The notes under the pieces: model-generated | What the model saw: only the letters and a program-made list of their open reading frames with translations | Databases searched by the model: none | What the model was told of the DNA's origin: nothing | Shown here: one piece after another, positions 1-64,000 of the stretch | Layout: each line of letters starts with the position of its first letter | How positions within the stretch are numbered: position 1 is the stretch's first letter | Made by a program: the position numbers and the translations under genes | Source of the DNA: Planctomycetaceae bacterium | GTDB lineage: Bacteria; Planctomycetota; Planctomycetia; Planctomycetales; Planctomycetaceae | Length of the DNA: 64,000 bases | Direction: 5' to 3' | Assembly: GCA_020850695.1 (NCBI GenBank) | Contig: JADZEF010000002.1 | Span: 1 to 64,000 of the forward strand

Positions 1-1
1 C

Positions 2-126
2 GCCATCGCCATCGCTCCGCGTGATGCCACTGTGTTCGGCCACACGGAACTTCTCTATCGCATCAACACCGCTCGCGCAAGCCTTCGCCAACCCCCCTAC
101 TCGACCCAAAGTGCGCGCCAGCCCTG
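2..126 (+). other. Open frame entering from the left edge, unrecognised
   Basis: One frame is open from base 2 to a stop at 124-126 and reads as about 41 plausible residues (AIAIAPRDATVFGHTELLYR and onward). It overlaps the 3' end of the McrB-like gene on the other strand. It could be the C-terminus of a gene lying mostly outside the window, perhaps of whatever replaced the missing McrB end, or chance. I do not recognise it. Confidence 0.2.
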
Positions 127-1971
127 AGGGTCCTGCACGTCAGCGTAGGTAAGCGGAATAGCATACTCGCTGCCACGTTTGTCGGACTCAATTAGCATCA
201 TCAGCTCGCCGAACACCTTGCTTAAGTTTCCGCGATTGATCTCATCGATAATGAAGACATAGGGGCGCCCGAGGTCTGTTCGTGCACGGTTGCAGAAGTC
301 ATAAAACAGTCCGTCGCGGCGATGAAACCCTCCTCCCTCTTTGGGACGATAACCTTGGACAAAATCTTCGTATGCATAGGATTGATGAAATTGCACCATT
401 CCGACGCGACTCGTGTCCTTCTGCTCAAGTATGGCATAAGCGATTCTTCGTGCGACAAACGTCTTTCCAACGCCAGGCGCGCCCTGAAGAATTACATTCT
501 TCTTGTGCCGCGTCGCAGCAATAATCGATTCAAACTCGCTTTTCGGCATGAAAAGCCCCGAAAGCGCGTCCGCAATCGTGAAAGGGGGCGCTTCGACCGT
601 CTTTGCCGGCGGGTCTGGTAATTCGAGAAGGTTCTCGGTGACGAAGGAGACGAAGGCCTGATAGTCGGTCGCGTCCGTTAGGGTCTTCGTCGGAACCCAC
701 GCGTCCTCAGGTAGTTCGAGGTTTACTGCTCTTAACCACTTTACTCGACGGATATGGTGATACTCACTTCGAGTAGGATCGTAGTTGTAGTCCGACTCTA
801 TGGTGCCGACGCCGAGAAGTTTGCTGCGTCCGATCTTCGCAACAACATAGTCACCCTTGTGCATCTTGTGAACGAATTCGAAGCATGCCCGCGAGTCGTT
901 ATGTGGTGCAGGCGTGTTTGGCCCACGTTGGCCGCTTAACGCGTTAAAGATGGCTGCTTGATCGGCAAACTGGCGCAGATCCCCGACGTCGTCCCAGCCG
1001 ATGGCGCATATCCCCTCTTCCTGGCACTTGTTCCAAAGCCGGCCACCTTCGCCGAGACTAATCGCCCAGAAATGAGGCGGAGTCCTTCGCAATTGGACTG
1101 GTCTTACGGGGTCGGGATACGTCGGAGTAGCGTTTCCGCTGTCGGCGTCGCCTGAGATACCTAACTGGCTTCGTATAAGTCCGAATAGTCGTTTTGTGCA
1201 TCGGTTGATATAGTTCTGGCTTTGATTGATTTTTCCCGAAGCTTCAAGCGCGAACGGATAACGCGTGGGCTTCGTCGACTGAATTTCTTCGCGAATGTCG
1301 TTTTCAAAGCGAATCCGGATTTCTGAAAGCGTGATTTGCTGCGGAAAGCTTTGGTAGCCTTCAAGGTCAATTCGATAATAGGGTGCCATCCCCGCCCATT
1401 GTCCTGGCTCGGGCGGTTCCTGCTGCACCTCGCGGTATTGAGCCCGAACGTACGAGAAGCCCGTCAAGGTCGCGTCCATGGAATGCAGAACCAGATCGCC
1501 CTTATGTGGTTCTCGCATCGTGTTGTACCAGTCGCGTCCATCTGATGCCTTTGACGGGCTCCAAAGGCATGTTCCAAACTCCCAGCCAGCGCCGCCGTGC
1601 TGAACACTCTTGGTGTTTTCGAGCCAGATAGAGCCTGTTGGACTTGCGGGAAGTTCCGGCACATTTCCTCTGCTTACTTTCGGCACGATTTCGAAGTCCA
1701 ACCCGCGGATTACAGCGAAGCACTTGGAATCTTCGCCGCCGGAGAACTCGTTCGGTTCTAGGATACGTCCAGTGATGCGACGCGCAGCAATTCCGAGCAC
1801 TGCTTTCGGGGGAAATCGCTTGCCTCGATAAAGCAGATCGTAGCCGGTGGAGTCGCGAAAGCGATGACTTGTGCCGCCCTGCTCCAGATCGGAAATCGCG
1901 GCCAGAACGTCGTCCCGAGTGACGCCGTCAGGTATGCCGGTAACGCCGTCAAGCTGGTGCTCAGATGGCAT
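97..1971 (-). CDS. McrB-like AAA+ NTPase of a type IV restriction system, C-terminally truncated
   Basis: Predicted motor subunit of a modification-dependent restriction system; McrB proteins bind modified DNA and drive an McrC nuclease. About residues 1-98 resemble the head domain of ScoMcrA-type enzymes (STGYDLLYRGKRFPPKAVLG). Two EVE/PUA-like segments follow, near 113-218 and 300-450 (AISLGEGGRLWNKCQEEGIC). The AAA+ core starts near 490 with Walker A GAPGVGKT, then FHQSYAYEDFVQGYRP and Walker B VFIIDEINRGNLSKVFGE. The protein stops at residue 624, before the sensor 1 motif (TMNTADRS in the family) and the arginine-rich end. No mcrC is seen. It starts at ATG 1969-1971. Probably a disabled remnant of a defence island; the domain calls are firm, activity is doubtful. 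Confidence 0.8.
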   Translation of the reverse strand: MPSEHQLDGVTGIPDGVTRDDVLAAISDLEQGGTSHRFRDSTGYDLLYRGKRFPPKAVLGIAARRITGRILEPNEFSGGEDSKCFAVIRGLDFEIVPKVSRGNVPELPASPTGSIWLENTKSVQHGGAGWEFGTCLWSPSKASDGRDWYNTMREPHKGDLVLHSMDATLTGFSYVRAQYREVQQEPPEPGQWAGMAPYYRIDLEGYQSFPQQITLSEIRIRFENDIREEIQSTKPTRYPFALEASGKINQSQNYINRCTKRLFGLIRSQLGISGDADSGNATPTYPDPVRPVQLRRTPPHFWAISLGEGGRLWNKCQEEGICAIGWDDVGDLRQFADQAAIFNALSGQRGPNTPAPHNDSRACFEFVHKMHKGDYVVAKIGRSKLLGVGTIESDYNYDPTRSEYHHIRRVKWLRAVNLELPEDAWVPTKTLTDATDYQAFVSFVTENLLELPDPPAKTVEAPPFTIADALSGLFMPKSEFESIIAATRHKKNVILQGAPGVGKTFVARRIAYAILEQKDTSRVGMVQFHQSYAYEDFVQGYRPKEGGGFHRRDGLFYDFCNRARTDLGRPYVFIIDEINRGNLSKVFGELMMLIESDKRGSEYAIPLTYADVQDPQGWRALWVE

Positions 1972-2607
1972 CGATTTCTACCGTTGGTTCGTGCGTGTGC
2001 CGTCCCGAATGCTGGATCTTCCCGTGCTCCGGACAGTGGCTCCAGCCTACGGAACATCTGCCACATCATCAACGGTGTCGCCGCCGCGTGCCAGTGAGTC
2101 TTTGCGCGTCTGCCGAATTCTGAGCTTTGACTGCGGCACGCGCGCGCCGTCGCGCCATACGGTCGCTTGGGTAATGACTCAACGCGTCCGGACCGAGTAC
2201 GTGCGCCTGTTTCCGCGCCACTCGACGGGAGAACCGGGGTGTTCGGCGGGAAAAACTGCTGCGTTTCGGCCCCGGCAATGAGTAGATCCCTAGCAACGGC
2301 GTTCGCAACGCCTGCCGGCGCGGTCGGCAGTCGTAAAACAGAGATCGCAGCTACTAACCATCATCAGGTGGTCACCGACCGTCCTTGAGATGCCTCGGAA
2401 GACCTGGCGCGAAATGACAATTGCTGGCAGCCTCCGTAATTCGAGGTGCTTCGGTGTCGGGGCTCACGAGCTACTCCGCGAGGCCCGTGAGATGTTCTGG
2501 AATCGCCGAGCGACTGGCATAAAAAGTGCTTTATTCGACAGTCCAATTCTCAATAGCAAGAACACTGCCAAAATGGCGGAGTCCTTGACGTTCAGGAAAC
2601 GCAAAGG
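1972..2607. other. Gene-poor stretch between divergent defence genes
   Basis: About 640 bases separate the McrB-like gene from the SLATT-like gene. Short open frames occur on both strands, but none shows a family motif or a convincing ribosome binding site. It should hold both divergent promoters; no clear sigma-70 boxes were found. Confidence 0.4.
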
Positions 2608-3315
2608 ATGCGGCGGAAAAATCCAGAAGTCCTAATTACGAAAGACCTTATGAGCACGGGAACCGGAAGGGGCGACGGCGCGCAACTGCTGTCGCCACGA
2701 ATTCAAGCTTTAGTGGATGAGGCGAGGAATCGAAGGCTGACGCTGGAAGCGATTGCCCATGGATACCGCAGCAATGTGTCGCGTGTGGAGTCATTACAGA
2801 AGCTCCTCGACGTCCTCAGTGTCCTGATCGCAATCTGGTTTGTCGCCGTTCTGTGGGGAATACAGGAAGCCGTCCCTGCTGCCCGGCTTGAGACAGTGAA
2901 GATCGCGGTCAACCTAGTCGGGACCGGGTTGTCGTTGGCGGTCGTTAGCTTGGTTATTCTCTCTTGGCGCGGAGAATGGAGAGGCATCACCGAACGGCAC
3001 CGCCAGCTCGCCGACTTCGCTGCCAAATTGGCAGGCCGCTACCGCAACATCTATGAGGCAGTGACATTCGATGAAGCGAAATTCCGAAAGGTCGAGGAGG
3101 AACGACAGGATTTTGAGAGCCAGCAGAACCTGCCGCTTGGGAGCATGCCGCCGTCGTGCGTGCCCGAGGGCTTCCGGCACGTCGGCAAGAGTTATCCGCA
3201 GCAGAATGTCCGCTGTCACGTTTGCAATCGAACGTGGAGTGAACTTCAGCTCGTGCCGTGGTGGCACACACGCGTGGTTTTTGGAAAATGTGAGAATTGT
3301 GGATTCGTGAAATGA
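2608..3315 (+). CDS. SLATT-like two-TM protein with C-terminal zinc ribbon
   Basis: Putative membrane effector. Two hydrophobic helices lie near residues 70-90 (VLSVLIAIWFVAVLWGI) and 100-122 (IAVNLVGTGLSLAVVSLVIL), inside long charged helices rich in Arg and Glu. This is the layout of SLATT domains, which are predicted pore-forming effectors of nucleotide-signal defence systems. Unlike a plain SLATT protein it ends in a Cys4 ribbon (CHVCNRTW ... CENCGFVK). The start is uncertain: ATG 2608, or ATG 2650, which gives 221 residues. Its stop overlaps the next ATG. No cyclase or SLOG sensor is seen beside it, so the trigger is unknown. The SLATT assignment is by architecture only. Confidence 0.6.
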   Translation: MRRKNPEVLITKDLMSTGTGRGDGAQLLSPRIQALVDEARNRRLTLEAIAHGYRSNVSRVESLQKLLDVLSVLIAIWFVAVLWGIQEAVPAARLETVKIAVNLVGTGLSLAVVSLVILSWRGEWRGITERHRQLADFAAKLAGRYRNIYEAVTFDEAKFRKVEEERQDFESQQNLPLGSMPPSCVPEGFRHVGKSYPQQNVRCHVCNRTWSELQLVPWWHTRVVFGKCENCGFVK

Positions 3316-3575
3316 AAAATGAAGTCAAGAAGGCCGCTTACAATCTCCTCAACACGCTTACCCCCGATGAGGTCGAGGAGTTGGTTGAAGTCCTCACGTA
3401 CTTCAATAGGAAGTGCCAGGAGGACCATCGCGCCGAGTGCCTGAATTCCGGTTGCGCGAAGAAAAAGGGAGAGGAACTCAGCCCGAGAGAAAAGGTTCTA
3501 ACCGAGAAGACCGCCGGTAGCAGTCAAATCTATCTCTCTGGAAGCAATTCCGTGTGCCCTTGCTGCAAGCGGTGA
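3312..3575 (+). CDS. Small Cys-containing protein coupled to the SLATT-like gene
   Basis: An 87-residue protein whose ATG shares the ATGA overlap with the upstream stop, so translation is probably coupled. The N-terminal half is a predicted helix (LTPDEVEELVEVLTYFNRKC). The middle holds spaced cysteines (C-x7-C-x4-C) and the end is CPCCKR, so it may bind a metal. I recognise no family. The tight coupling suggests it regulates or assembles with the two-TM protein; antitoxin-like and sensor roles are both possible. Confidence 0.6.
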   Translation: MKNEVKKAAYNLLNTLTPDEVEELVEVLTYFNRKCQEDHRAECLNSGCAKKKGEELSPREKVLTEKTAGSSQIYLSGSNSVCPCCKR

Positions 3576-3901
3576 TACCCCTCCAGCAAGGCAACGATGT
3601 CGCGCCGGATCGACTCAGAGAGCGTCGGCCAAAGGTCGACGATCAGTTGGAGTTGTGGGTCGGCGCAGGACCAACTAAGTGCCGTTTCCCCTGATGCGCC
3701 GGATTCTGCGCCGCTCCGAACATGAATCGCACGAAATTGCTCGGAATGACGGGTCGTTTCGGCCCCCTCCGTGGGCATCCTGTTCTCTGACCTCGCGCAA
3801 GAGGCAGCAAACCCCGGCAACCCCGGGGTTTTTTGATGCGCTGAACCCATTGGATACCGAGCGACTGCGTTCAACGCCGGCCGGACTGGTCGGGCGAGCA
3901 A
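3530..3901 (-). CDS. Short ORF with a planctomycete integrase-tail-like end; probably a fragment
   Basis: The last 45 or so residues (DPQLQLIVDLWPTLSESIRR followed by DIVALLEGYHRL) resemble a helical tail I associate with the C-termini of planctomycete integrases and related mobile genes. The upstream part is low complexity and unconvincing. It overlaps the end of the small Cys gene on the other strand. It is best read as a relic of a mobile gene at the edge of the accessory segment, not a working gene. Confidence 0.3.
   Translation of the reverse strand: MLARPVRPALNAVARYPMGSAHQKTPGLPGFAASCARSENRMPTEGAETTRHSEQFRAIHVRSGAESGASGETALSWSCADPQLQLIVDLWPTLSESIRRDIVALLEGYHRLQQGHTELLPER
3809..3834 (+). 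terminator. GC-rich hairpin with T-run
   Basis: AAACCCCGG at 3809-3817 pairs with CCGGGGTTT at 3823-3831 around a five-base loop and runs into a six-base T-tract. This is a canonical intrinsic terminator for plus-strand transcripts, and the SLATT-like/Cys pair is the nearest upstream unit. Confidence 0.7.
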
Positions 3902-3956
3902 AACGCATCGCTGCTGGTCGCATCGCCTGGAAGATTACTCAGGCAAACGAGCCCGG

Positions 3957-4538
3957 TCAGACGGGCATCGCACCGGGCGGTGCGGGATGGTGGGGAGAAT
4001 GCCGATCACGCAAGGACTTCAACCGCAGCGCCAGCGTCACCGACAGAATCCCCAAGGCCACGGCGTTCGCGCCGATCAGCCATGCAATCGTCACCAACCC
4101 GGCTTGAGGCCAGGCCAGCAGCGCGACGCCGAAAGCGACGGACGCGGCGCCGGCCAGTCCAAGCAGCCATTCGTTCTCAATGATTTTGCGAAGTCGGATC
4201 GCCGCGATGATCTCGAACACTCCGCGGGCGATGCACCACAGCGCCACGAACGCCAGCAGCACGCTCACGGTGATGTCCGGCCAGAAGAACGTTCCAATTC
4301 CGGCGAAGACACCAATAATTCCCACAATCAGCATCGCCCACCAGCCTTCCTGCTGATGGCGGCTGCCGATCGCCAGCGCGACGGCCGCCACCCCATCGAT
4401 GAGTGCATGGGCGGCGTACAGCATCACCAGGACAAGGATCGTCAGCCCCGGCCAGGCGAAGGCCGCGACGCCGAAGGCGATGGCACACAGCCCCCGGACC
4501 AGGAAGACCCACCAGTTCCGCGTCAAGGCGTCGCGCAT
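3957..4538 (-). CDS. HdeD/DUF308-family membrane protein
   Basis: A 193-residue inner-membrane protein with six hydrophobic helices arranged as repeated pairs (MLYAAHALIDGVAAVALAIG; FVALWCIARGVFEIIAAIRL; IAWLIGANAVALGILSV). The Gly-rich helices and the spacing 'ARGVFEIIAAIRLRK' match the HdeD family, whose E. coli member is linked to acid resistance; its molecular action is unknown. I chose ATG 4538 because GAGGAG sits seven bases upstream, in preference to a TTG two codons earlier. It is monocistronic as far as can be seen. Confidence 0.85.
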   Translation of the reverse strand: MRDALTRNWWVFLVRGLCAIAFGVAAFAWPGLTILVLVMLYAAHALIDGVAAVALAIGSRHQQEGWWAMLIVGIIGVFAGIGTFFWPDITVSVLLAFVALWCIARGVFEIIAAIRLRKIIENEWLLGLAGAASVAFGVALLAWPQAGLVTIAWLIGANAVALGILSVTLALRLKSLRDRHSPHHPAPPGAMPV

Positions 4539-4622
4539 GGCCAACTCCTCTGTGAAAGAGAGTCCGCTGCGATCATCTCCGGAGAACGCGCCCCGGTTGT
4601 CGTGGCCCGACTTTTCTCCCGC

Positions 4623-5366
4623 CTACTTCGTTGAAATCGCCTGCTGCAGGGGGCGAAGCACATTGTCGATCACATAGGTCTCAAGCAGGTTCTCGGCGTG
4701 CATCCGCAGCCGATCGAACGTCGCCTCGTAGGTCTGGTTCGGCTCGAGGCTGCCGTACTGCCGCACCGTGAAGTACACGCTGATCTGGTCTTCGGGGAAG
4801 TCCCCCTTGCGGACCTGATACGCGCTGGTCCGCGTTTCAATCATCAGCCGCGCCTGCAGCCGGCATGATTCTTCGAGAGCGATCGTGATCGACGGCTCAT
4901 AGTTGAGGATGTGAGCTCCCGGCGTGCTCGCGAGGCCATCCATCGCGTGGCTGGTCCCCAGCGCCTCGGCAACCAGCGCATCGTGGTTCCCGCGGTAGCT
5001 GAAGTCGAAGCCCAGCATGTAGTCGAGGGCTTCGCAATCGAGCGGGCTGACCGACAGCATGTAGGGGACGAGTTGCAGCACGAGCCGGTGCTGGTCGCAG
5101 GCGCCATCGGCTTGCGGGGGGTTGATGTAGCCGCTGCAGATCCGCCGCGCCTCGAGCGTCACCCACCGCTGCTGTCCCTGGTCCTTGTCTTCCTCGAGCA
5201 CGAAGTCGCCGGTCTCGCGGGTATGAAAGTTCCGCATCGTGGGATACTGTTTCTGCACCCGTTCGAAGAATCCCAGGATCGTCTCGCGGCTTCGCGGAAG
5301 TTCCATCTCCGTGTTGAGGTTCATGTTGATGTAGTAATCATCCGCGAGGGACTCGTACGCATTCAT
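4623..5366 (-). CDS. Conserved-looking planctomycete hypothetical protein
   Basis: A 247-residue soluble protein without signal peptide or TM helices. It is acidic and well balanced in composition, with three cysteines (RRICSGYINPP, GACDQH, LDCEAL) and a strongly patterned central region (QLVPYMLSVSPLDCEALDYM). It looks like a real single-domain protein, but I recognise no catalytic motif or family. The longer frame to 5522 adds a low-complexity leader, so the ATG at 5366 (MNAYESLADDYY) is preferred. It is divergent from the alkyltransferase gene with about 180 bases between. Confidence 0.65.
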   Translation of the reverse strand: MNAYESLADDYYINMNLNTEMELPRSRETILGFFERVQKQYPTMRNFHTRETGDFVLEEDKDQGQQRWVTLEARRICSGYINPPQADGACDQHRLVLQLVPYMLSVSPLDCEALDYMLGFDFSYRGNHDALVAEALGTSHAMDGLASTPGAHILNYEPSITIALEESCRLQARLMIETRTSAYQVRKGDFPEDQISVYFTVRQYGSLEPNQTYEATFDRLRMHAENLLETYVIDNVLRPLQQAISTK

Positions 5367-5545
5367 GGGCAGGCTTCCAATTAAGAACTCAGGTGCGAAG
5401 CGCAAGGATGGCACCGTTTCCCGGAAACATCCTGACCCTCCGCACCCAGCGCACTGGAAAGAGGAACGGGCCTCTTCCCGAACGGCTTCACCCCCGCAAC
5501 ACTTGGATCGTTGCGCTTCCAATGCATTCTATAGGGACAATTGAG

Positions 5546-6160
5546 ATGGGTCAAAGAACCACTTCGGTTACGCCGCGAAAGGCCGCGCCGAAGCGTTCCC
5601 GGTCGAGCGATTCCGCCAGCGGTCTCTGGCTGTCCACCTTCGCGACCGATCTCGGCTGGATGGGGATTCTAGGCCGCGACGGCCGCCTGATCCGACTGAC
5701 GTTAGGGCATTTCTCAGCCGAGAACGTGCGAAACGCGTTGACGTCAGTGGATGATGATGGCTGCGACGATCGTCTCGACGTCGAGTCCGCTTCGCCGTCG
5801 ATCACCGAGGGAGACTGGCACCCTGAGCTGCGGCGTCAGCTGGAGCAATTCGCGCTGGGCGAGCGTGTTGACTTCCGGAAGTGCCCGGTCGAACTCCCCG
5901 CGATGACGGCGTTCCAAAAGCGGATCATCGAGCAGACCCGCCGTATTCCTTACGGCAAGACGCTGAGCTATTCGGAGGTCGCCACGAGGGCGGGATCTCC
6001 CGGAGCCGCGCGGGCCGTCGGGAATGTGATGCGGTCGAACCGCATCCCACTCATCATTCCCTGCCACCGCGTCGTCGCGGCGTGTGGTTTGGGCGGTTAT
6101 TCCGCCCCGCAAGGTCTCGACCTCAAGCGCAAGCTGCTGGAACTGGAATCGCGCGGATGA
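5546..6160 (+). CDS. ogt: Methylated-DNA-[protein]-cysteine S-methyltransferase
   Basis: Suicide DNA repair enzyme that moves the alkyl group from O6-alkylguanine to its own cysteine. The C-terminal domain carries the active-site motif IPCHRVV and the helix-turn-helix segment YSEVATRAGSPGAARAVGNVMRSN, both typical of Ogt/MGMT. The residues after the active site are VAACGLGGYS, where many family members have a charged residue. About 90 poorly conserved N-terminal residues precede it. ATG 5546 is preferred to the upstream frame. The stop overlaps the DUF456 start, so the two are co-transcribed. Confidence 0.88.
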   Translation: MGQRTTSVTPRKAAPKRSRSSDSASGLWLSTFATDLGWMGILGRDGRLIRLTLGHFSAENVRNALTSVDDDGCDDRLDVESASPSITEGDWHPELRRQLEQFALGERVDFRKCPVELPAMTAFQKRIIEQTRRIPYGKTLSYSEVATRAGSPGAARAVGNVMRSNRIPLIIPCHRVVAACGLGGYSAPQGLDLKRKLLELESRG

Positions 6161-6702
6161 TGACCTACGCCGCCGCCACGTTGCTGTTCGTCGCGAACCT
6201 CGCGGCGTGGACAGCAACTCTCTTCGGACTTCCGGGCAACTGGTTCATCGTGCTGATGGCGGCAGGGTACGCGTACCTCATGCGCGACGCGGTTCCGCAA
6301 CTGACCTGGCATGTCGTCATCGCCACGCTTGCCCTGGCTGTCATTGGCGAAGGACTCGAATTGCTGGCCGGCGTGCTCGGAGTGAAGAAACTTGGCGGCA
6401 GCCGTCGCGGGATGATCTACTCCGTCATCGGAACCATCGCGGGAAGCATCGTCGGAGCAATGGTCGGGGTTCCGATTCCGGTTGTCGGTCCCATCGTTGG
6501 AGCGCTGGGTTGCGGGGCAGCCGGCGCCTTCGCCGGCGCCTACCTCGGCGAGGTCACTGCCGGCCGCCATCACGACGATCGCATGGCGATCGGGAAAGCG
6601 GCGCTGATCGGTCGTCTGCTGGGCACCGGCGGCAAGCTCGGCGTCGGCCTGCTCATGGTCATCCTGGTCGCGATCGACTCATTCTTCGACCGCGCAGTTT
6701 GA
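6157..6702 (+). CDS. DUF456-family membrane protein
   Basis: A 181-residue membrane protein with about four helices and a glycine-rich central pair (GMIYSVIGTIAGSIVGAMVG, VGPIVGALGCGAAGAFAGAY), the hallmark of DUF456. The family resembles glycine-zipper proteins; its function is not established. It starts at the ATG of an ATGA overlap with the repair gene. The pairing may be only transcriptional, since nothing in the protein points to DNA repair. Confidence 0.8.
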   Translation: MMTYAAATLLFVANLAAWTATLFGLPGNWFIVLMAAGYAYLMRDAVPQLTWHVVIATLALAVIGEGLELLAGVLGVKKLGGSRRGMIYSVIGTIAGSIVGAMVGVPIPVVGPIVGALGCGAAGAFAGAYLGEVTAGRHHDDRMAIGKAALIGRLLGTGGKLGVGLLMVILVAIDSFFDRAV

Positions 6703-6730
6703 TGCCGCTTCGTTGCCAAGGCGAGAAGAC

Positions 6731-6870
6731 ATTTCAACGCAAATACGCCAAGCCCGCAAAGTGTCGCAAAGGGAAAGCCAATCGATCTGGAATCGTTGCT
6801 GACTTCACCGATCTCGTCCTCTCTTTGCGTTCCAGCTTTGCGCCCTTCGCGTCTTTGCGTTAAGTGCTTT
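6731..6870. repeat. Imperfect inverted repeat built from GCAAAG words
   Basis: A left arm at about 6735-6772 and a right arm at about 6822-6861 are reverse complements with mismatches. Both consist of a degenerate word such as ACGCAAAG or GCGCAAAG recurring every 9-13 bases. It lies between convergent genes and could fold into a long hairpin that ends both transcripts. Confidence 0.7.
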
Positions 6871-6884
6871 TGACCTGAGATATC

Positions 6885-7964
6885 TCACGACTGCGGCGTC
6901 TGATTGCCCAGCCGTTCCTGGCGGTCGAACTCCAGGATTGCGGAGATCATTTCGTCCAGCTTTCCCTGCTGCATCACCTGGTCGAGCTTGTAGATCGTCA
7001 GTCCGATGCGGTGGTCGGTGATGCGATTCTGCGGAAAGTTGTAGGTGCGGATCCGTTCGCTGCGGTCGCCCGAGCCGATCAGCGTCCGCCGCTTCTCTGC
7101 CCGCTCCTTGTGAGCCTTCTCGATCTGCAGTTCCAGCAACCGGCTGCGGAGCACCCGCATCGCTTGCGCTTTGTTCTTGTGCTGGCTCTTTTCGTCCTGG
7201 CACTTCACGACTGTATTGGTCGGCAGGTGAGTGATGCGAACCGCCGACTCCGTCTTGTTCACCTTCTGCCCGCCGGGGCCGCCTGCACGCATCGTGTCGA
7301 TCTGCAAGTCTTCAGGGCGAATCACGACTTCGACTTCGCTTGCTTCGGGCATGACGGCCACCGTTGCGAGGCTGGTATGCACTCGCCCCTGCGTCTCCGT
7401 CTCGGGAACGCGCTGCACGCGGTGGCCGCCGCTCTCGAACTGCAGCTGATGAAAGGCCCCTTCCCCGGTGATCGAGAACGTCACATCCTTGATGCCCCCG
7501 AGCTCCGACGGGCTGAGGTCGAGCACTTCCGTCTTCCACCCGCGATCGGCGACGAACTTCGAATACATGTCATAGAGGTCCCGTACGAAGAGGGCGGCTT
7601 CATCGCCCCCCGTCCCCGCACGGATTTCCATGATCAGGCCGCCGCGGGTAATCGAATCACCCGCCGTCGCCAGATCTTCGAGCTCGCGAGCCATGGTCGC
7701 CCGCTGCGCCTGCAACCCTGTCAATTCTTCCTGGGCGTAGGCCCGCGCATCGGGGTCGCTCTCTTCGTCCCGCATCTGCGTCGCGACCGCAATCTCTTCC
7801 TCGAGCTTGTTCCATGCCCGTACCGCCGCCGCGACTTTCTGCAGGCCGCCATACTCACGCTGCACGGCCAGCAGCCGCGTGGTATCGGTGAGAATGGCCG
7901 GGTCCTGAAGCTGCAGCTCAAGTTCTTCGAACCGCTTCAGCTTGGTTTCGAGACTGGGAAACAT
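6885..7964 (-). CDS. prfA: Peptide chain release factor 1
   Basis: Recognises UAA/UAG in the ribosomal A site and triggers peptide release. The 359 residues are full length for RF1. The release loop is [20 protein letters not shown] (GGQ present) and is followed by [16 protein letters not shown]. The codon-reading loop, PAT or PVT in best-known RF1 proteins, reads PET here ([18 protein letters not shown]). The absence of an RF2-type SPF tripeptide supports RF1. There is no prmC (hemK) partner next door. It starts at ATG 7964. Confidence 0.95.
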
Positions 7965-57795: not shown

Positions 57796-58047
57796 TCAAC
57801 CACGGCGTCGATGCCGCGGCGGCTGGTAGACGAAGAACGCGGGCTGACCCCAGACGTCGAGATCGCGAATGACCTGGATCTTGTCGCCATGCTTCACGCA
57901 GGTCTTATGACGGCGGCGGCATTTTTCGCAGGTCGTGGTCTCGGGGAGATCCCATTCGACTTCGAACGCATGGCCGTCGCCGACGCGTTCAAAACCGCGG
58001 ATCTTGACCCCCTCAGGCATATCAAGATCCATTTCCACCGTGGCCAC
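57796..58047 (-). pseudogene. Remnant of an ISL3-family transposase (N-terminal zinc-finger part)
   Basis: The 83 codons read ATVEMDLDMPEGVKIRGFER, then CEKCRRRHKTCVKHGDKIQV, IRDLDVWGQPAFFVYQPPRH, and a stop. The Cys pairs and the xVRDLDxWGxPAFxxYxPPxHR pattern are those of the N-terminal domain of ISL3 transposases. The HTH and DDE domains are absent. The flanking 58048-58449 has no gene that I recognise. Confidence 0.7.
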
Positions 58048-58662
58048 CGCCGTCTCCCTCCCTGGAACGCGAAGATCTGAAGTCCTTCAAGGAGTACCAG
58101 CAGGCAGCGCTGGGGGTCCAGGAGTCGAAGCGGAAACCGAATCGCCGGGCGACAACCGACCCATGTCCTGCGAACCGCAAAAGCCACCCCACCTCAAGAC
58201 CACCGAGCCCGGCACCCAGAAACGGTAGAGCCGCTTTCATGTCCGCCACCAACAGTGGTGGGGGACATAAAAGCTGTCACGCCGCGCGTTATCGAATCAG
58301 GACTTGCGACGACGTGAGACACATTCGCTGGCCAGGCTGAGACGTAAGAGTTGGCCAACGGACTCGATTGAGACACAAGAGTTGGCCAATCTGCGACGTG
58401 TTCGTCCGCCAACTATGCAACTCGAACTTCCGGTGGCGGACCTCGCGGGTGAGGTGGTCCCCATTTGGTGGACCATTTTCGGGTCAAGTTAAGCTCGGCG
58501 TCATACGCCGCCTGCTGCCTTTCAGCCCCTGGAACGAGGGACCCGGAGCCCCGTTCGTCTCGCCGTCGCGTCGGCCTTCACACACCAGGACGATGCGACG
58601 GCTCAACGAATCGGGCGAACCCCGTTTCGTTGAGCCCGAGCCGAGGTCCCCTCCAGCCATCC

Positions 58663-59484
58663 TCACTTCCCAAAGTACACCGATTCCGGAGTCCGGCTGT
58701 TCAATGACTGGTGCGGTCGCTCCCGTCCATAAAAATCGAAGTACGCCCGCAATCCCTGCTCCGTCTCCTCGCCCGTCGCGTAGTCCTGCAAATAGACGTT
58801 CTCGTACTTCACCGTCCGCCACAGTCGCTCCACGAACACGTTGTCCAGCGCTCGTCCCTTCCCATCCATGCTGATCCGGATTCCCGCCTCCTCCAATCGG
58901 CTCGTCCAGGCCCGGCTCGTGAACTGACTCCCCTGGTCCGTATTGAATATCTCCGGCCTCCCCACCCGCAGCGCCTCGTCCAGCGCCTCCAGGCAAAATT
59001 CCACATCCAGCGTGTTCGACAGCCGCCAACTCAGCACATGGCGGCTGTGCCAGTCCAGCACCGCCGTCAAATACAAGAAGCCCCTCCGCAGCGGCACGTA
59101 GGTGATGTCGGTCGACCACACCTGATTCACCCCATCCATCGTGATCTCCCGCAAAAGATAGGGGAAAACGCGGTGCTCCCCGTCCCGCTCCGACAGCCGC
59201 GGCTTCGGATAAAGCGACTCGATCCCCATCACCCGCATCAGCCGAGACACCCGCTTCCGATTGATCGGACTCCCTTCCTGAATCCCCAGCGCCACCGCCA
59301 TCCGACGCGACCCATAGAACGGAGTCTTCAGATACTGCTCGTCGATCAGCCGCATCAACCGCAGGTTCTCTTCGCTCTCTCCAACCGGCTCCAGATACCA
59401 GCTCGAACGGTTCAACCCCAGCAACTCGCACTGACGCCGCACGCTCAACTTCCGATGCTTCGCATCCACCAGGCCCCGCTTCAC
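58663..59484 (-). CDS. IS3-family transposase OrfB (DDE catalytic part)
   Basis: The 273 residues cover the rve-type catalytic core: first Asp in QVWSTDITYVPLRRG, second in IFNTDQGSQFTSRAW, Glu in DNVFVERLWRTVKYE. The N-terminal HTH_21 region (YGSRRMAVALGIQEGSPINR) is present. It is in the -1 frame relative to OrfA and open back to the A9 tract, so it is most likely made as an OrfAB fusion, not from the GTG at 59484. The frame ends normally before the left inverted repeat. Confidence 0.92.
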   Translation of the reverse strand: MKRGLVDAKHRKLSVRRQCELLGLNRSSWYLEPVGESEENLRLMRLIDEQYLKTPFYGSRRMAVALGIQEGSPINRKRVSRLMRVMGIESLYPKPRLSERDGEHRVFPYLLREITMDGVNQVWSTDITYVPLRRGFLYLTAVLDWHSRHVLSWRLSNTLDVEFCLEALDEALRVGRPEIFNTDQGSQFTSRAWTSRLEEAGIRISMDGKGRALDNVFVERLWRTVKYENVYLQDYATGEETEQGLRAYFDFYGRERPHQSLNSRTPESVYFGK

Positions 59485-59485
59485 G

Positions 59486-59776
59486 CTAGCCGAGCCCGGC
59501 AGATTTTTTTTTCAACCACTCCAGTTCCACCTGGAGCTTCCCGATCTGCTCGTACAACGCCGACTCCTTCCTCTCCACGTCCTCCCTACGCGAACTCCCC
59601 TCCCGCTCGAAGAGCATCGACGCCTCCGCCAGAAGCCGCTTCTTCCACTGCGCAATCAGCGTCGGATGAACCCCGTGCTCAGCCGCCAGCTCGCTCACCG
59701 TCTTCAACCCCCGGACCGCCGCAAGGGCGACCTTCGCCTTCAGATCCGCTCCGTAAACCTTCCGCTTCCGTGACAT
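59486..59776 (-). CDS. IS3-family transposase OrfA (HTH)
   Basis: The 96 residues contain an IS3-type helix-turn-helix (KAKVALAAVRGLKTVSELAA EHGVHPTLIAQWKKRLL) and a leucine-zipper-like C-terminus (YEQIGKLQVELEWLKKK). Nine A residues on the minus strand (59504-59512) encode the Lys run just before the stop. A -1 slip there joins OrfA to OrfB. ATG 59776 is the start. Confidence 0.9.
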   Translation of the reverse strand: MSRKRKVYGADLKAKVALAAVRGLKTVSELAAEHGVHPTLIAQWKKRLLAEASMLFEREGSSRREDVERKESALYEQIGKLQVELEWLKKKSAGLG

Positions 59777-59852
59777 CCACAAAACCCCTTCAGTGTCCAG
59801 AAGAAACCCGGTCACCCGAGCTTAACCCCTGGTCCACTTTTCGGGGACCACC

Positions 59853-60779
59853 TCACGGGTTCACAGCGATGAGTTCCAGCAAATTTCCGGGTGGGGGTAT
59901 CAAACTCGCGAAACTTCGTTCGAGGTTGCCTCGACCCGCGCTGCCCCGCATGGCTGGTTTCCTGCGGACTTGGCAGTGGCTCGCGATTTCATCTCGAGCT
60001 GGGCGAGTCGGTCGATCTGCCGGGTAAGCCTCAGTTGGGTTTCGATCGACGGCAGCACCCCCGTCATCGTTTCCGGGTTGTGCGCGAGCGATCGGGCGAT
60101 AGATTCCCCCAGTTGAAGAGCGATCCGCATCAGGTCGCTGTTGACCGTTCCGAGCACCGCCTTCAGGGAATTCTTCCGAGAGAGGGCTTTCAATTCGTAT
60201 TCTCGCACCTTCTGCATGCGGGCCGCCGAAGTCTCCTCGTCGATCGGACGCTCGCCGTGGCGAGGCTTCTCCCCGTTCTCCATCAAGTCGTTCTGCATCG
60301 TCCAGTTCCTCTTGTGTACTCGAGTTCAAGTTAAGCATTTCTTGCGCTGGCACGCTGCCTGACGCAAGAACCATGGTTCTCGGTCGTCGGATCTCATGCC
60401 CGTGAAACATAAGGCCCGCGGCTTCCAATGCAGGTCGCAGAGTTTGCTTCGCCTTGCGCAGGATCTGCCTTGCCAGTTTGGTCGCTTTCGACACCTCCCG
60501 TTCGTCCCTTCTCGACTGCTGCAGGGCTTTCAAGTCCTCACGCAGCTGATCCGCGAGCTTCGAATCCGTGCCGATGTATCGGACGATCTGCCTGTTCTCA
60601 CGCCGGAATCGCAACTTGTAATGTCGTCGCGCCGAGCCCCGGAGTTCCTCGGCAATGAACCCCTGACGGGAAAGCGCCGCCATATCGTCCGCCGTCAGCC
60701 GCAGTCGGGAGAGCCCCTCAGCCTTTTCAGCGGAAGCACCGAAGCCGGGATCGTCCGAACCTGGGTTGCCTGTCCGCAT
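59853..60779 (-). CDS. Unrecognised protein of the right-end cassette; only the first half convincing
   Basis: The first 160 or so residues look real (LRLTADDMAALSRQGFIAEE, YKLRFRRENRQIVRYIGTDS, KLARQILRKAKQTLRPALEA). They resemble a family I associate with planctomycete mobile DNA. From about NSSTQEELDDAE on, the frame is Arg/Gly/Pro-rich and runs opposite the 59900-60298 gene, so the true end may be lost to a frameshift or the rest is fortuitous. The start overlaps the 477-residue gene by 85 bases. Confidence 0.5.
   Translation of the reverse strand: MRTGNPGSDDPGFGASAEKAEGLSRLRLTADDMAALSRQGFIAEELRGSARRHYKLRFRRENRQIVRYIGTDSKLADQLREDLKALQQSRRDEREVSKATKLARQILRKAKQTLRPALEAAGLMFHGHEIRRPRTMVLASGSVPAQEMLNLNSSTQEELDDAERLDGERGEASPRRASDRRGDFGGPHAEGARIRIESPLSEEFPEGGARNGQQRPDADRSSTGGIYRPIARAQPGNDDGGAAVDRNPTEAYPADRPTRPARDEIASHCQVRRKPAMRGSAGRGNLERSFASLIPPPGNLLELIAVNP
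59900..60298 (-). CDS. Unrecognised protein of the right-end cassette
   Basis: The 132 residues are mostly helical and charged (AARMQKVREYELKALSRKNS, ATMTGVLPSIETQLRLTRQI in pattern). AGAGGAA lies eight bases before ATG 60298. It lies wholly inside the longer frame 59853-60779, but this frame has the more protein-like composition here. The IS3 element is inserted 45 bases beyond its stop. It is the last gene of the minus-strand cassette; no function is suggested. Confidence 0.55.
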   Translation of the reverse strand: MQNDLMENGEKPRHGERPIDEETSAARMQKVREYELKALSRKNSLKAVLGTVNSDLMRIALQLGESIARSLAHNPETMTGVLPSIETQLRLTRQIDRLAQLEMKSRATAKSAGNQPCGAARVEATSNEVSRV

Positions 60780-62128
60780 CGGTCAATCTCCCGTGACAAG
60801 TCGACGACCCGATCCACCGTCGCGAGCAGTTTGTCGAAGGACTTCAGAGCCATCGGCTCGGAGTTCTCCGCCGACCGGTCCACGGTGCTCCTGGACAACC
60901 TCTGGTTCAATTGGGCGGCGCGAAGGTGGAAGGCATGACTGACATCGGCCAGCGCCAACCGCAGCACGCGTTCCCGGGGGTCAGGAATGAGCAGGGCATC
61001 GTCCTTCAGCGGGCGGATCACCTGTTCGTCCAGGAGTCGCAGCCAATCGTTCCATGTGCGCTGCTGTTCCTCGGCGGTGGGTCGGCCGGCTGCGGAATTC
61101 GCGGCGGGATGGCAGAGTCGCGCGAGCGTCGTGGCGACGTCCAGCGGTGCCGTGATCGGTTGCGGTCGCGGTTTTCCGACATCCATCAGCATGCCCGTCG
61201 ACTCGTACAAGCTATCGCGCACACCCTCCCGAAAATGTTCTGCATCGCGATGCTCGAGGAAATAGCTCAACCTGTCGCGCTCTTTCTCTGACGGCTCCCA
61301 CGCACTGATGTCGAAAGTCTCCAGCCCGAGGTATTCGTCAAGCCGTTCGAAGTGCCGGGCAATTGCTTTCAGCGGAGTCGGCGGTTCGATGGCGAGCGCG
61401 GCGGGGGACCAGCCCACGAAGATCATGCGCCATTCGATCTCGTCGTCGAGCTGGTCAACCTCGAGTTCGGAGACCGGTGGGATGGGATGGGCGTCGACGC
61501 CCGGGAACGGGTGAACGGACACAATTGGCGGCGACTGATCCGTCGTGGGCGAGTGAGCCTCGAGCTCCTCGTCTTGATGACGATGACTCAGGCGCAGCGC
61601 CAAACCGAAATTCTCGGCGAGTTTCTTGCACTGAGACGGGTTCAGGTTCTCCAGCCCCGTCGCAAGCGTCGCCGCCAGTCCACAGGCCCGCAGAACGGCA
61701 ACGTCGCGCGTCGAGAAGGCGATGAGCAGTTCCCCGCCCCGGGCTCGAGCCGCCGCACGTGTTGGTCCATCGTCGAGAATGGCGAAAATCGGCAGTTCCC
61801 GGCCGGAAAGACTGCCCCTGTCCGTCATGAGGTCAGAGATGCGTCCGGTTGCGGACTCCCGAATCGCAATCAGTATTCCGATCGGGTCGGTCAGAACCTG
61901 AGCGAGGCTCAATGTTCCGTCGCTGCCTCGGTCGACAACTCCGGCCTGGTGGAGTGCCTCGACGGAATGTTCTGCGGTGAGATTCGCGATCGTCGTGGCG
62001 GGATCTCGAGGATTGCGGAACGCGCCCGGAGCGGCCGCCAGAAACGACAACGGATCCTCTATCGCATCGGGTTCGCAGTTCTGGATCAAACTCTCATAGA
62101 CGCGGCTCAGAGAGTCATCCGTTGTCAT
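60695..62128 (-). CDS. Unrecognised 477-residue protein of the right-end cassette
   Basis: A soluble protein without signal or TM helices. The N-terminal half has an ordered look (SFLAAAPGAFRNPRDPATTI, LTDPIGILIAIRESATGRIS, ELLIAFSTRDVAVLRACGLA). The acidic middle is followed by WPxA-like WSPAALAIEPPTPLKAIARH and a helical C-terminus. I see no nuclease, ATPase, HTH or zinc motif. It is central to the four-gene minus-strand cassette and overlaps the next gene. It may be a transposition accessory or cargo protein. Confidence 0.65.
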   Translation of the reverse strand: MTTDDSLSRVYESLIQNCEPDAIEDPLSFLAAAPGAFRNPRDPATTIANLTAEHSVEALHQAGVVDRGSDGTLSLAQVLTDPIGILIAIRESATGRISDLMTDRGSLSGRELPIFAILDDGPTRAAARARGGELLIAFSTRDVAVLRACGLAATLATGLENLNPSQCKKLAENFGLALRLSHRHQDEELEAHSPTTDQSPPIVSVHPFPGVDAHPIPPVSELEVDQLDDEIEWRMIFVGWSPAALAIEPPTPLKAIARHFERLDEYLGLETFDISAWEPSEKERDRLSYFLEHRDAEHFREGVRDSLYESTGMLMDVGKPRPQPITAPLDVATTLARLCHPAANSAAGRPTAEEQQRTWNDWLRLLDEQVIRPLKDDALLIPDPRERVLRLALADVSHAFHLRAAQLNQRLSRSTVDRSAENSEPMALKSFDKLLATVDRVVDLSREIDRCGQATQVRTIPASVLPLKRLRGSPDCG

Positions 62129-62211
62129 GACTAACCTCTCTCAATAACTGGTCGACGGACAACGAACTCAGTAGCGGGCCCGCGGAAAGACTCCTCGGGG
62201 TGTGGGGTGTC

Positions 62212-62682
62212 TCACGCCGCCGACTCATGGGTGTTCAAAGGACATCGGGAAGTGGCGTGGACGGGCTTCTCGATCGACGCTCCCGCATGCGACGCTGAGG
62301 GCAGGTCGTCCTCTCCCCTGATTGATCTCAGCTGCAGCATTTCCAGGTCATGGGTCCGAATGTCTTGAGCGCGCTGATGTTCGAACTTTTCACGCTCGAG
62401 TTGCAGTTCGGCTTTCCGGGTCTCGTAGTCCAAGGCCAACTTCAGGAAATCGGCTGCGTCCTCGGGACTTCCAAGCGGAGCACTCAATACCCCGAGCATC
62501 TTGACGTGTAGCAGCATCTCCCTGTCGAACAGCCGATCCGCTTCCTCGAGCGGGAGCCGGGCCTTGGCATCAAGCAGGCTCTCGGCAACAATCGCACCCC
62601 CGTAGTACGCCAGCTTCAGGCCCGCGGTGAACTCCGCCTTCCCGCGGAAATCTGGGGCTCGATGACACGTGCCGCGATCCAA
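62212..62682 (-). CDS. C-terminal part of a frameshift-split cassette gene
   Basis: The frame uses a TTG start. The convincing part begins at KAEFTAGLKLAYYGGAIVAE and continues DRLFDREMLLHVKMLGVLSA, then a coiled coil (ALDYETRKAELQLEREKFEH). It joins smoothly to the upstream frame (RVIEPQISAG) if one G is restored at about 62638-62646. It is therefore probably the second half of one protein, not a separate gene. Confidence 0.55.
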   Translation of the reverse strand: MDRGTCHRAPDFRGKAEFTAGLKLAYYGGAIVAESLLDAKARLPLEEADRLFDREMLLHVKMLGVLSAPLGSPEDAADFLKLALDYETRKAELQLEREKFEHQRAQDIRTHDLEMLQLRSIRGEDDLPSASHAGASIEKPVHATSRCPLNTHESAA

Positions 62683-63062
62683 CTCGTGGCGCGCAGGCAG
62701 GTCCGAACGTCGAAGAATAGGGATTCCGTGAGCGTGACGGTGGCTTCCAACACCCCCAGATATTCCGCGATGTCGGATGCGCCGCAGTCTGCCACCGCCA
62801 GGATCATCAGGCGTTCGGCCGTCGACTCATCCGCCCACAGTCGGTATGCGTCGGCGATGTCGGGATGTTTCCGATCAGCGATCGACTTTCCCGAGTCTCC
62901 TCGGTTCCGGAGCCCAATGAAGTCGGCCACGCGGCTGACCAAGGCGTCCTGGCCACCCACTCGCGAGTGCTGGCCCAAGGCTTGACGTGCCGCAACGGCG
63001 ACTCGCCCCCCGGGCCCGTCAAGGTTGCGGTAGATATCTGCGACGATATCAGACGGTTGCAT
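62616..63062 (-). CDS. N-terminal part of a frameshift-split cassette gene
   Basis: From ATG 63062 (SD-like GGAAGGGA seven bases upstream) it reads MQPSDIVADIYRNLDGPGGR, RLWADESTAERLMILAVADC and LFFDVRTCLRATSWIAARVI, then leaves frame near QISAG. The frame is also open upstream to 63191. Together with the 62212-62682 part it would make about 280 residues. It looks like a planctomycete mobile-DNA family of unknown function. The gene faces the MerR-like gene across a 255-base divergent region. Confidence 0.6.
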   Translation of the reverse strand: MQPSDIVADIYRNLDGPGGRVAVAARQALGQHSRVGGQDALVSRVADFIGLRNRGDSGKSIADRKHPDIADAYRLWADESTAERLMILAVADCGASDIAEYLGVLEATVTLTESLFFDVRTCLRATSWIAARVIEPQISAGRRSSPRA

Positions 63063-63317
63063 CGCGATTCCCTTCCGTGGTCTTGCTACGAGCGAATCCC
63101 TCGCTGGCCGATGTCCCCGCGGGCAAACCACCGTTGTTTTGATTGATCCCGAGCGGCTCCGCCTTTTGCCCTTATTTGGGCTATATGTCAAGGGTCACGG
63201 AAACAGTGAGCAACAAATCAATCAAGTCCAGTAAGAGATCGGCCGAAAGCATACCTCGGACGCGGTACCTGCCCCGCAGATGATGGTATTTGGCCCGACT
63301 TTGGATACAGTCATGGA

Positions 63318-63647
63318 ATGGACATCTCCCAATTGCATGCCGCCACCGGAATCAGCCGAAGGAAACTCCGGTACGTTCTGGATCATCGCTTGGTCCCGGG
63401 GCTGGACATCGAGATTGTTCCGGATGAGGTCGGGCGTCCGCGAAAATTCGCGGTGGACGTCGGACTAGCCATCGTCAGCGCCGCGACACTTTTGGAGCTC
63501 GGACTGTCTCATGAAATGATCCGCAGTGCTATTTGCCACGACATTCTGGAGTTTTCTGCGCGAGTTCTCGCCATTTCCGACTCGGATTTCAACTGGTCGC
63601 CCATCGGGATTGTTCTGCAAGCCATGTTGACCATGATTGAGGCATGA
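63318..63647 (+). CDS. MerR-like small DNA-binding protein
   Basis: The 109 residues begin with a MerR-type HTH (DISQLHAATGISRRKLRYVL), a wing-like segment (VPDEVGRPRKFAVDVGLAIV) and a helical C-terminus (LELGLSHEMIRSAICHDILE). It has no metal-site cysteines. Its stop overlaps the next ATG (ATGA), so it is co-translated with the transposase-type gene. It probably controls the element or the divergent cassette. Confidence 0.7.
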   Translation: MDISQLHAATGISRRKLRYVLDHRLVPGLDIEIVPDEVGRPRKFAVDVGLAIVSAATLLELGLSHEMIRSAICHDILEFSARVLAISDSDFNWSPIGIVLQAMLTMIEA

Positions 63648-64000
63648 GCTCCGCAACTCGAACTCAGCGCACGTACGACCATCGCCTGCGCGATCTCGTC
63701 CGATCAACGGGCGACATCCATCAGGCCATCGGACGAGGTATTCCACGCTCCACCGCGCGGGGCTGGCTATCCTCGCGCCGGGCCGAAGTGGTCACCGTTG
63801 ACGGGGTCGACCGGGACGTCGTCAAGCTTCAAAAGGAGTTGCTCGCACTTCGCAGACGCTTGGAACGGCTCATCGCGTTGCTGCGGCTCGTCATCCTGCT
63901 GTGGAAGTTCTCCGGGTTCTCGCTCATCAACCTTCGGATTCCCGACCGAGAAAGGAAGCTCAGGCTGCTTCGAGCCATCGATCGGTCTCATTCCGTCCTT
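63644..64000 (+). CDS. DDE-transposase/integrase-type protein, N-terminal part, runs off the right edge
   Basis: The 119 residues run to the window end without a stop: MSSATRTQRTYDHRLRDLVR, STGDIHQAIGRGIPRSTARG WL, then a coiled coil (VVKLQKELLALRRRLERLIA LLRL), ERKLRLLRAIDRSHSVL. The HTH plus coiled coil followed by RLLRAI(D/E)RS matches planctomycete transposases with an rve catalytic domain, which would lie outside the window. The ATG overlaps the MerR-like stop. It is probably the mobility gene for the right-end element. Confidence 0.7.
   Translation, partial: MSSATRTQRTYDHRLRDLVRSTGDIHQAIGRGIPRSTARGWLSSRRAEVVTVDGVDRDVVKLQKELLALRRRLERLIALLRLVILLWKFSGFSLINLRIPDRERKLRLLRAIDRSHSVL

Follow-up and report, generated by a model that had tools for sequence, protein, structure and literature searches.

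A minus-strand gene cassette of a planctomycete as the probable right arm of a divergent Tn7-like transposon

Transposons of the Tn7-like type recruit targeting modules, among them TnsE, TnsF and several CRISPR systems, and programmable insertion tools are based on these elements. In Tn7 the insertion site is chosen by TniQ and the choice is relayed by TnsC, while cutting is the task of TnsA and joining that of TnsB. The CRISPR-associated transposons (CASTs) of type V-K have a regulator of the MerR type, CvkR, and a MerR-like regulator in a Tn7-like element is also encountered in the present case. We have analyzed the first 64,000 nucleotides of contig JADZEF010000002.1 from a Planctomycetaceae bacterium (assembly GCA_020850695.1), a stretch referred to as the window, which near its right-hand border contains a minus-strand cassette of genes, DE, C, A and B, diverging from a MerR-like open reading frame (ORF), M. 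Very probably this cassette makes up the right arm of a transposon of the Tn7-like type whose right end is at position 58256.

The known parts of such elements are the Tn7 core, sites of the parE type and modular target selectors (PMC11406308, PMC10293859), and the cargo of Tn7-like elements has been surveyed (PMC8649781). With Tn7 and its kin the element shares a TnsB with rve and Mu-transpos_C domains, TnsC (TniB) and TniQ, with TnsA in its relatives, as well as ends composed of several sites, of which the right one has four in close succession while the left one is built differently, and insertion in one orientation downstream of a conserved gene. It differs in having 4-bp instead of 5-bp duplications (four pairs), in the use of the gyrB 3' end as a site, in that the left and not the right end adjoins the target gene, in a Ku-like gene ahead of tnsA, and in right-arm modules that consist of a large terminase (TerL) set or of unknown genes. 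When compared by type of target gene, a branch of I-F3 CASTs with a parE-targeting TnsD likewise inserts beside the gene for a subunit of a type II topoisomerase (PMC11406308), but here the gene is gyrB and not parE, and the right arms studied contain no CRISPR genes. A literature search, itself incomplete, retrieved no Tn7-like element with a gyrB site, a 4-bp duplication, a Ku partner or a terminase module, and only passing mentions of Tn7-like elements in planctomycetes.

Transposon ends, Tns proteins and insertion site

The right end, which following the convention of PMC11406308 is the end upstream of the tns genes, is located at 58256..58386 on the minus strand. Its terminus begins with 5'-TGG, in the window in the form 5'-TGGTGGGGGACATAAAAGCTGTCA at 58256, and it comprises four GMCAN7TGTC sites (58372-58386, 58341-58355, 58318-58332 and 58264-58278) with spacings of 31, 23 and 54 bp. 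An array of identical spacing is present at L018, L041, L042 and further loci (L, G and C numbers denote loci, genomes and contigs). A search for the right-end pattern yielded 16 matches in 13 of 170 genomes of the family and none in the reversed control; the one in G031, with three mismatches, is probably a chance match. In a phylum-wide sample of 392 genomes the pattern was found in the window's own genome only. The left-end pattern has a single match in that genome, G000:C259:8399-8442, and further ones in ten relatives (11 of 14 genomes, control 0). Both ends display arrays of putative transposase-binding sites together with terminal TG..CA.

Beside the left end on C259, and reading towards it, lie the genes for a TnsB-type transposase, cut by the contig start, for TniB/TnsC and for TniQ. 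As evidenced by Pfam, the TnsB, encoded on a contig other than that of the window, combines rve (8.2e-9) with Mu-transpos_C (4.6e-7) as does the TnsB of Tn7-like elements, and the Tn7-like TnsC and TniQ are recognized by the TniB model (2.8e-25 on C259, 5e-27 in L114) and the TniQ model (4.4e-12 and 2.4e-12, respectively). Pattern searches found one right end and one left end in the own genome, and a protein search one TnsB. A more complete arrangement is seen on a single contig, C181 of G458, in the order right end, TerL, small protein, zinc-ribbon/helix-turn-helix (ZnR/HTH) protein, Xre, Ku, TnsA (PF08722, 4.6e-8) and TnsB, with TnsC, TniQ, an AAA ATPase and a 319-aa protein after an insert past TnsB. 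The gene set of C181 and the TnsB, TniB/TnsC and TniQ of C259 are the grounds on which we consider the element to be Tn7-like, and the fixed-spacing array, the matching left end, the C259 genes, the gyrB-adjacent left ends and paired duplications of relatives, and a conserved gene order are those on which the cassette of the window is assigned to its right arm. Directly ahead of tnsA/tnsB a Ku-like gene is found in L088 (11451-12287; PF02735, E 2.8e-22), L111 (6849-7895) and L113 (8420-9484), and in L111 it is apparently fused to the C-terminal part of TnsA.

In eight relatives (G457, G016, G467, G492, G500, G501, G502 and G494) the left end lies 10-11 bp past the stop codon of gyrB, so that in these, though not in the own-genome copy, a conserved attachment site entered in one orientation is evident. 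Paired ends are flanked by 4-bp target-site duplications (TSDs), CCGG in G457, CAGG in G016, GTGG in G502 and GTCA in G494, where both ends are on one contig. As published Tn7 relatives are described as generating 5-bp duplications (PMC11406308), we place the element as a divergent Tn7-like variant and not as a standard member. By analogy to Tn7, TniQ would recognize the gyrB 3' end, TnsB would bind the end arrays, and TnsA and TnsB, via TnsC, would cut and join the element, and the divergent operons may be repressed by M or by the Xre protein found at the same place.

Several points weigh against this assignment. The TSD of four element pairs is 4 bp long instead of the 5 bp of Tn7-like elements. 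The left end in the own genome does not adjoin gyrB, and the gyrB 3' end is empty there. The window contig (C2) and C259 are unjoined in the assembly, and the left flank of the latter, ..GGCTG/TGGTGG with the slash at the border, matches the TSD CTGT only with one terminal T missing, for which reason we regard the joining of C2 to C259 as likely and no more. A search for TnsA in the own genome was negative; the element has an assembly gap there in which the gene was possibly lost. Finally, it is from position only that we infer what the C module does.

Directly abutting the right end, with the 4-bp spacer CTGT, is an old left-end remnant (58229..58251, minus strand; TGGTGGCGGACATGAAAGC) whose sequence is almost that of the C259 left end. 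Such remnants next to a right end also occur in L042, L065, L066, L068 and L072, and right ends followed some 4 bp on by another left end fit repeated insertion at one site. Abutting ends of the IS21-like type were considered as well and were replaced by this serial insertion. Directly outside the right end (57796-58047, minus strand) there is a truncated ORF similar to the N-terminal part of ISL3-type transposases. In L067 (928-3073) a complete mini-element of 2.1 kb follows gyrB, with both ends and a 4-bp duplication, but it contains only a fragment of a Fic gene and no tns genes and would therefore depend on another element.

The cassette and its decay in the window copy

A preliminary description, made from the sequence alone, had reported a run of unfamiliar minus-strand genes diverging from a MerR-like ORF, and ORF calling reproduced this arrangement (59900-63191 and 63318-63647, respectively). 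That these are genes rather than chance ORFs is borne out by homologues of A, B, C, D/E and the MerR-like ORF that are collinear in other genomes. The order M, X, A', DE, C, A, B recurs, as such or with small changes, in L018 (G016), L041 (G457), L042 (G502) and L043 (G500), all of the same family; L017 (G014) has DE-C-A.

Gene C (60695..62128, minus strand) encodes 477 aa and has homologues in the same position in L041 (33%), L018 (33%), L017 (29%) and L043 (29%). Like DE, A and B, it gave no significant match to Pfam, PHROGs, NCBIfam or PADLOC, and no counterpart of gene C was found in viral, phage and plasmid collections. Profile searches against the PDB retrieved unrelated fragments that were rejected (best E 0.014 for C and 0.42 for DE), and a single-sequence structure prediction for C (pLDDT 34) was not used. 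Gene DE (62212..63191, minus strand) is about 280 aa long in its relatives, and in L017 (11101-11943) one ORF spans what a 1-nt frameshift near 62620-62630 has split into two in the window, 62616-63191 and 62212-62682. Programmed frameshifting was rejected as an explanation, as the window would need a shift of 1 nt, L018 has lost a repeat copy of 8 bp, and the L017 gene is fused. Note that DE of the second element, in L018, is also disrupted in frame, one copy of the 8-bp direct repeat CTGGTGGC having been lost at 7160-7260.

The ORF of gene A (59853..60779, minus strand) counts 308 aa, but conservation is confined to roughly the first 135 codons (60378-60779), with 44% identity to A of L017 over residues 22-134. 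Its tail is a run-through across gene B in another frame up to the end of an IS3-type insertion sequence (IS), from which the stop codon derives; the left border given to the cassette in the preliminary description, 59853, is a consequence of this. Gene B (59900..60298, minus strand; 132 aa) is the final cassette gene ahead of the right end and has homologues in L041 (6183-6722) and L042 (3631-3990). Ahead of the right end, gene B is followed by a Fic-family-like cargo gene in L042 (4107-5108) and L069 (17458-18459), both of one genus. In the window it is the IS3-type element (58450..59855, minus strand) that separates gene B from the right end. Its boundaries are fixed by other copies, by a CGGG duplication and by inverted ends, it encodes orfA (59486-59815) and orfB (58663-59484), and Pfam recognizes rve, HTH_21 and HTH_Tnp_1. 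With orfA and orfB carrying HTH_Tnp_1 and rve, inverted ends and a TSD within 3-5 bp, it belongs to the IS3 family.

At the opposite side of the cassette, M (63318..63526, plus strand) has been truncated by a second IS to about 70 native codons, which are 64% identical over 69 aa to M of L024 and L018; intact relatives have 165-187 aa. Matches to MerR HTH models all stayed below the gathering score (E 0.11 for the window, 0.0081 for L024, and 0.01 with MerR_1 for L073). Homologues of M also lead another conserved set, in which M is accompanied by a 164-aa protein and a large serine recombinase, in L025 (8001-11034), L026 (2205-4713) and L027 (1590-4622). Ahead of this module in L025, genes resembling type I CRISPR-Cas components (helicase, Csb1/Csb2-like) were noticed by eye at 2-7417.

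The IS in question begins at about 63527, and its left part occupies the remainder of the window (63527..64000, plus strand). When the genome was searched with 59853-64000, the right-hand 470 bp recurred about eight times elsewhere, and the 50-bp segment 63523-63576 had many more matches, often inverted at the far side of a copy. BLAST among the copies delineated an element of about 1.65 kb with terminal inverted repeats of about 50 bp and no similarity left of 63523/63527, and on this basis the DDE-type transposase ORF starting at 63644 is part of a multicopy IS whose left end lies within the MerR-like ORF. A sister copy gives a Pfam match to rve, and copies with extra tandem terminal repeats at one end were seen in L021 (10795-10966 and 12489-12542).

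The preliminary description had proposed that the MerR-like gene, the DDE gene coupled to it by an ATGA overlap and the cassette form a single transposon, moved by the 63644 transposase. Adjacency and the overlap do speak for such a unit, and the overlap itself is real; however, the codons of the MerR-like ORF beyond about 63526, its stop and the ATGA are all supplied by the IS, and the coupling is a by-product of its insertion. With an IS border inside the MerR-like ORF, unrelated flanks and no accessory genes at the other IS copies, and homologous cassettes that lack the IS, this model can hardly be correct. It was already refuted in its own terms, as it had been staked on the accessory genes travelling with this transposase, for which no linkage is found elsewhere. 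Extending the contig to the right, as had been suggested, leads only 188 bp past the window, to 64188, still within the IS. The outline of the proposal, a transposon equipped with a regulator and accessory proteins of its own, has nevertheless held, the transposon being the Tn7-like one. Its copy in the window is decaying: M is interrupted by an IS, DE is frameshifted, A runs through, and an IS3-type element separates B from the right end, and for these reasons it is probably no longer autonomous.

Alternative modules in the right arm

Two types of genes neighbour the right end in the family. Parts of DE-C-A-B are found in the window, L018, L041 and L042, with C only in L075 and A only in L071. 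In L065, L068, L072, L073 and L074 the same slot holds all or parts of a set consisting of the ZnR/HTH protein, a small protein and TerL. The genes of this set are also present at contig ends in L087, L088 and L089, where the right end has diverged (L088) or none was found. No element contains both modules, and profile comparisons of C with TerL, DE with the ZnR/HTH protein and B with the small protein detected no relation. TerL of the sister elements aligns over its full length with phage large terminases of the GpA type, at 24-27% identity (GpA_ATPase 5.5e-19), with Walker A (RQVEKTT), Walker B (LFLDEFQD) and acidic nuclease motifs in place. Unlike its phage counterparts it resides in a transposon arm next to the end, and the window element lacks it. 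It was initially considered as the transposase of these ends, an idea that was dropped once tnsA, tnsB, tnsC and tniQ were found.

A second module in a modular slot beside the core machinery is reminiscent of TnsE and of the Cas modules of Tn7 and CASTs, although C, DE, A and B have no detectable sequence relation to any known family. The right-arm module might in the same manner provide a second pathway, for the choice of mobile targets or for transfer from cell to cell. We tentatively suggest, as a possibility short of probable, a divergent Tn7-like branch, marked by the gyrB site, the 4-bp duplications and the Ku-like partner, that uses a swappable right-arm module as a new targeting or transfer device, namely a phage terminase motor in one lineage and DE, C, A and B in that of the window. 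If true, such a branch with its slot for TerL or unknown genes would widen the known modularity of Tn7-like elements and would be a tangible and testable example of a DNA-packaging motor taken over by a transposon.

Taken for the module as such, a second targeting or transfer pathway and plain cargo are about equally likely. That DE-C-A-B is ordinary hitch-hiking cargo, for instance an undescribed defence system with no part in transposition or transfer, is a serious contender to which we give a little less than an even chance. Tn7-like elements are rich in defence and unknown cargo genes (PMC8649781), the cassette families have no known match, and remnant copies occur with no ends nearby (L017, L019). 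The cargo explanation sits less well with the constant position from regulator to right end, maintained although identity among the C proteins is only about 30-40%, with the alternation with TerL in one slot, never both, and with the lack of a PADLOC match.

The modules might also serve as functions of a phage satellite, with TerL and proteins like the small terminase, or whatever replaces them, enabling packaging by a helper phage. The full-length TerL with its phage-like identity and intact motifs is in line with this, and so is its location next to the end in at least five elements and on the same contig as the tns genes in G458. As the annotated arms contain no capsid or other packaging genes, as no homology links C with TerL or DE with the ZnR/HTH protein, and as a TerL of the sister type was not found in the window's genome, we consider a satellite unlikely. 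In one of the TerL-type elements, L072, the old left end abutting the right end is accompanied by what appears, by eye, to be the start of a Cas9-like protein with a RuvC-I-like N-terminus (1-385, minus strand).

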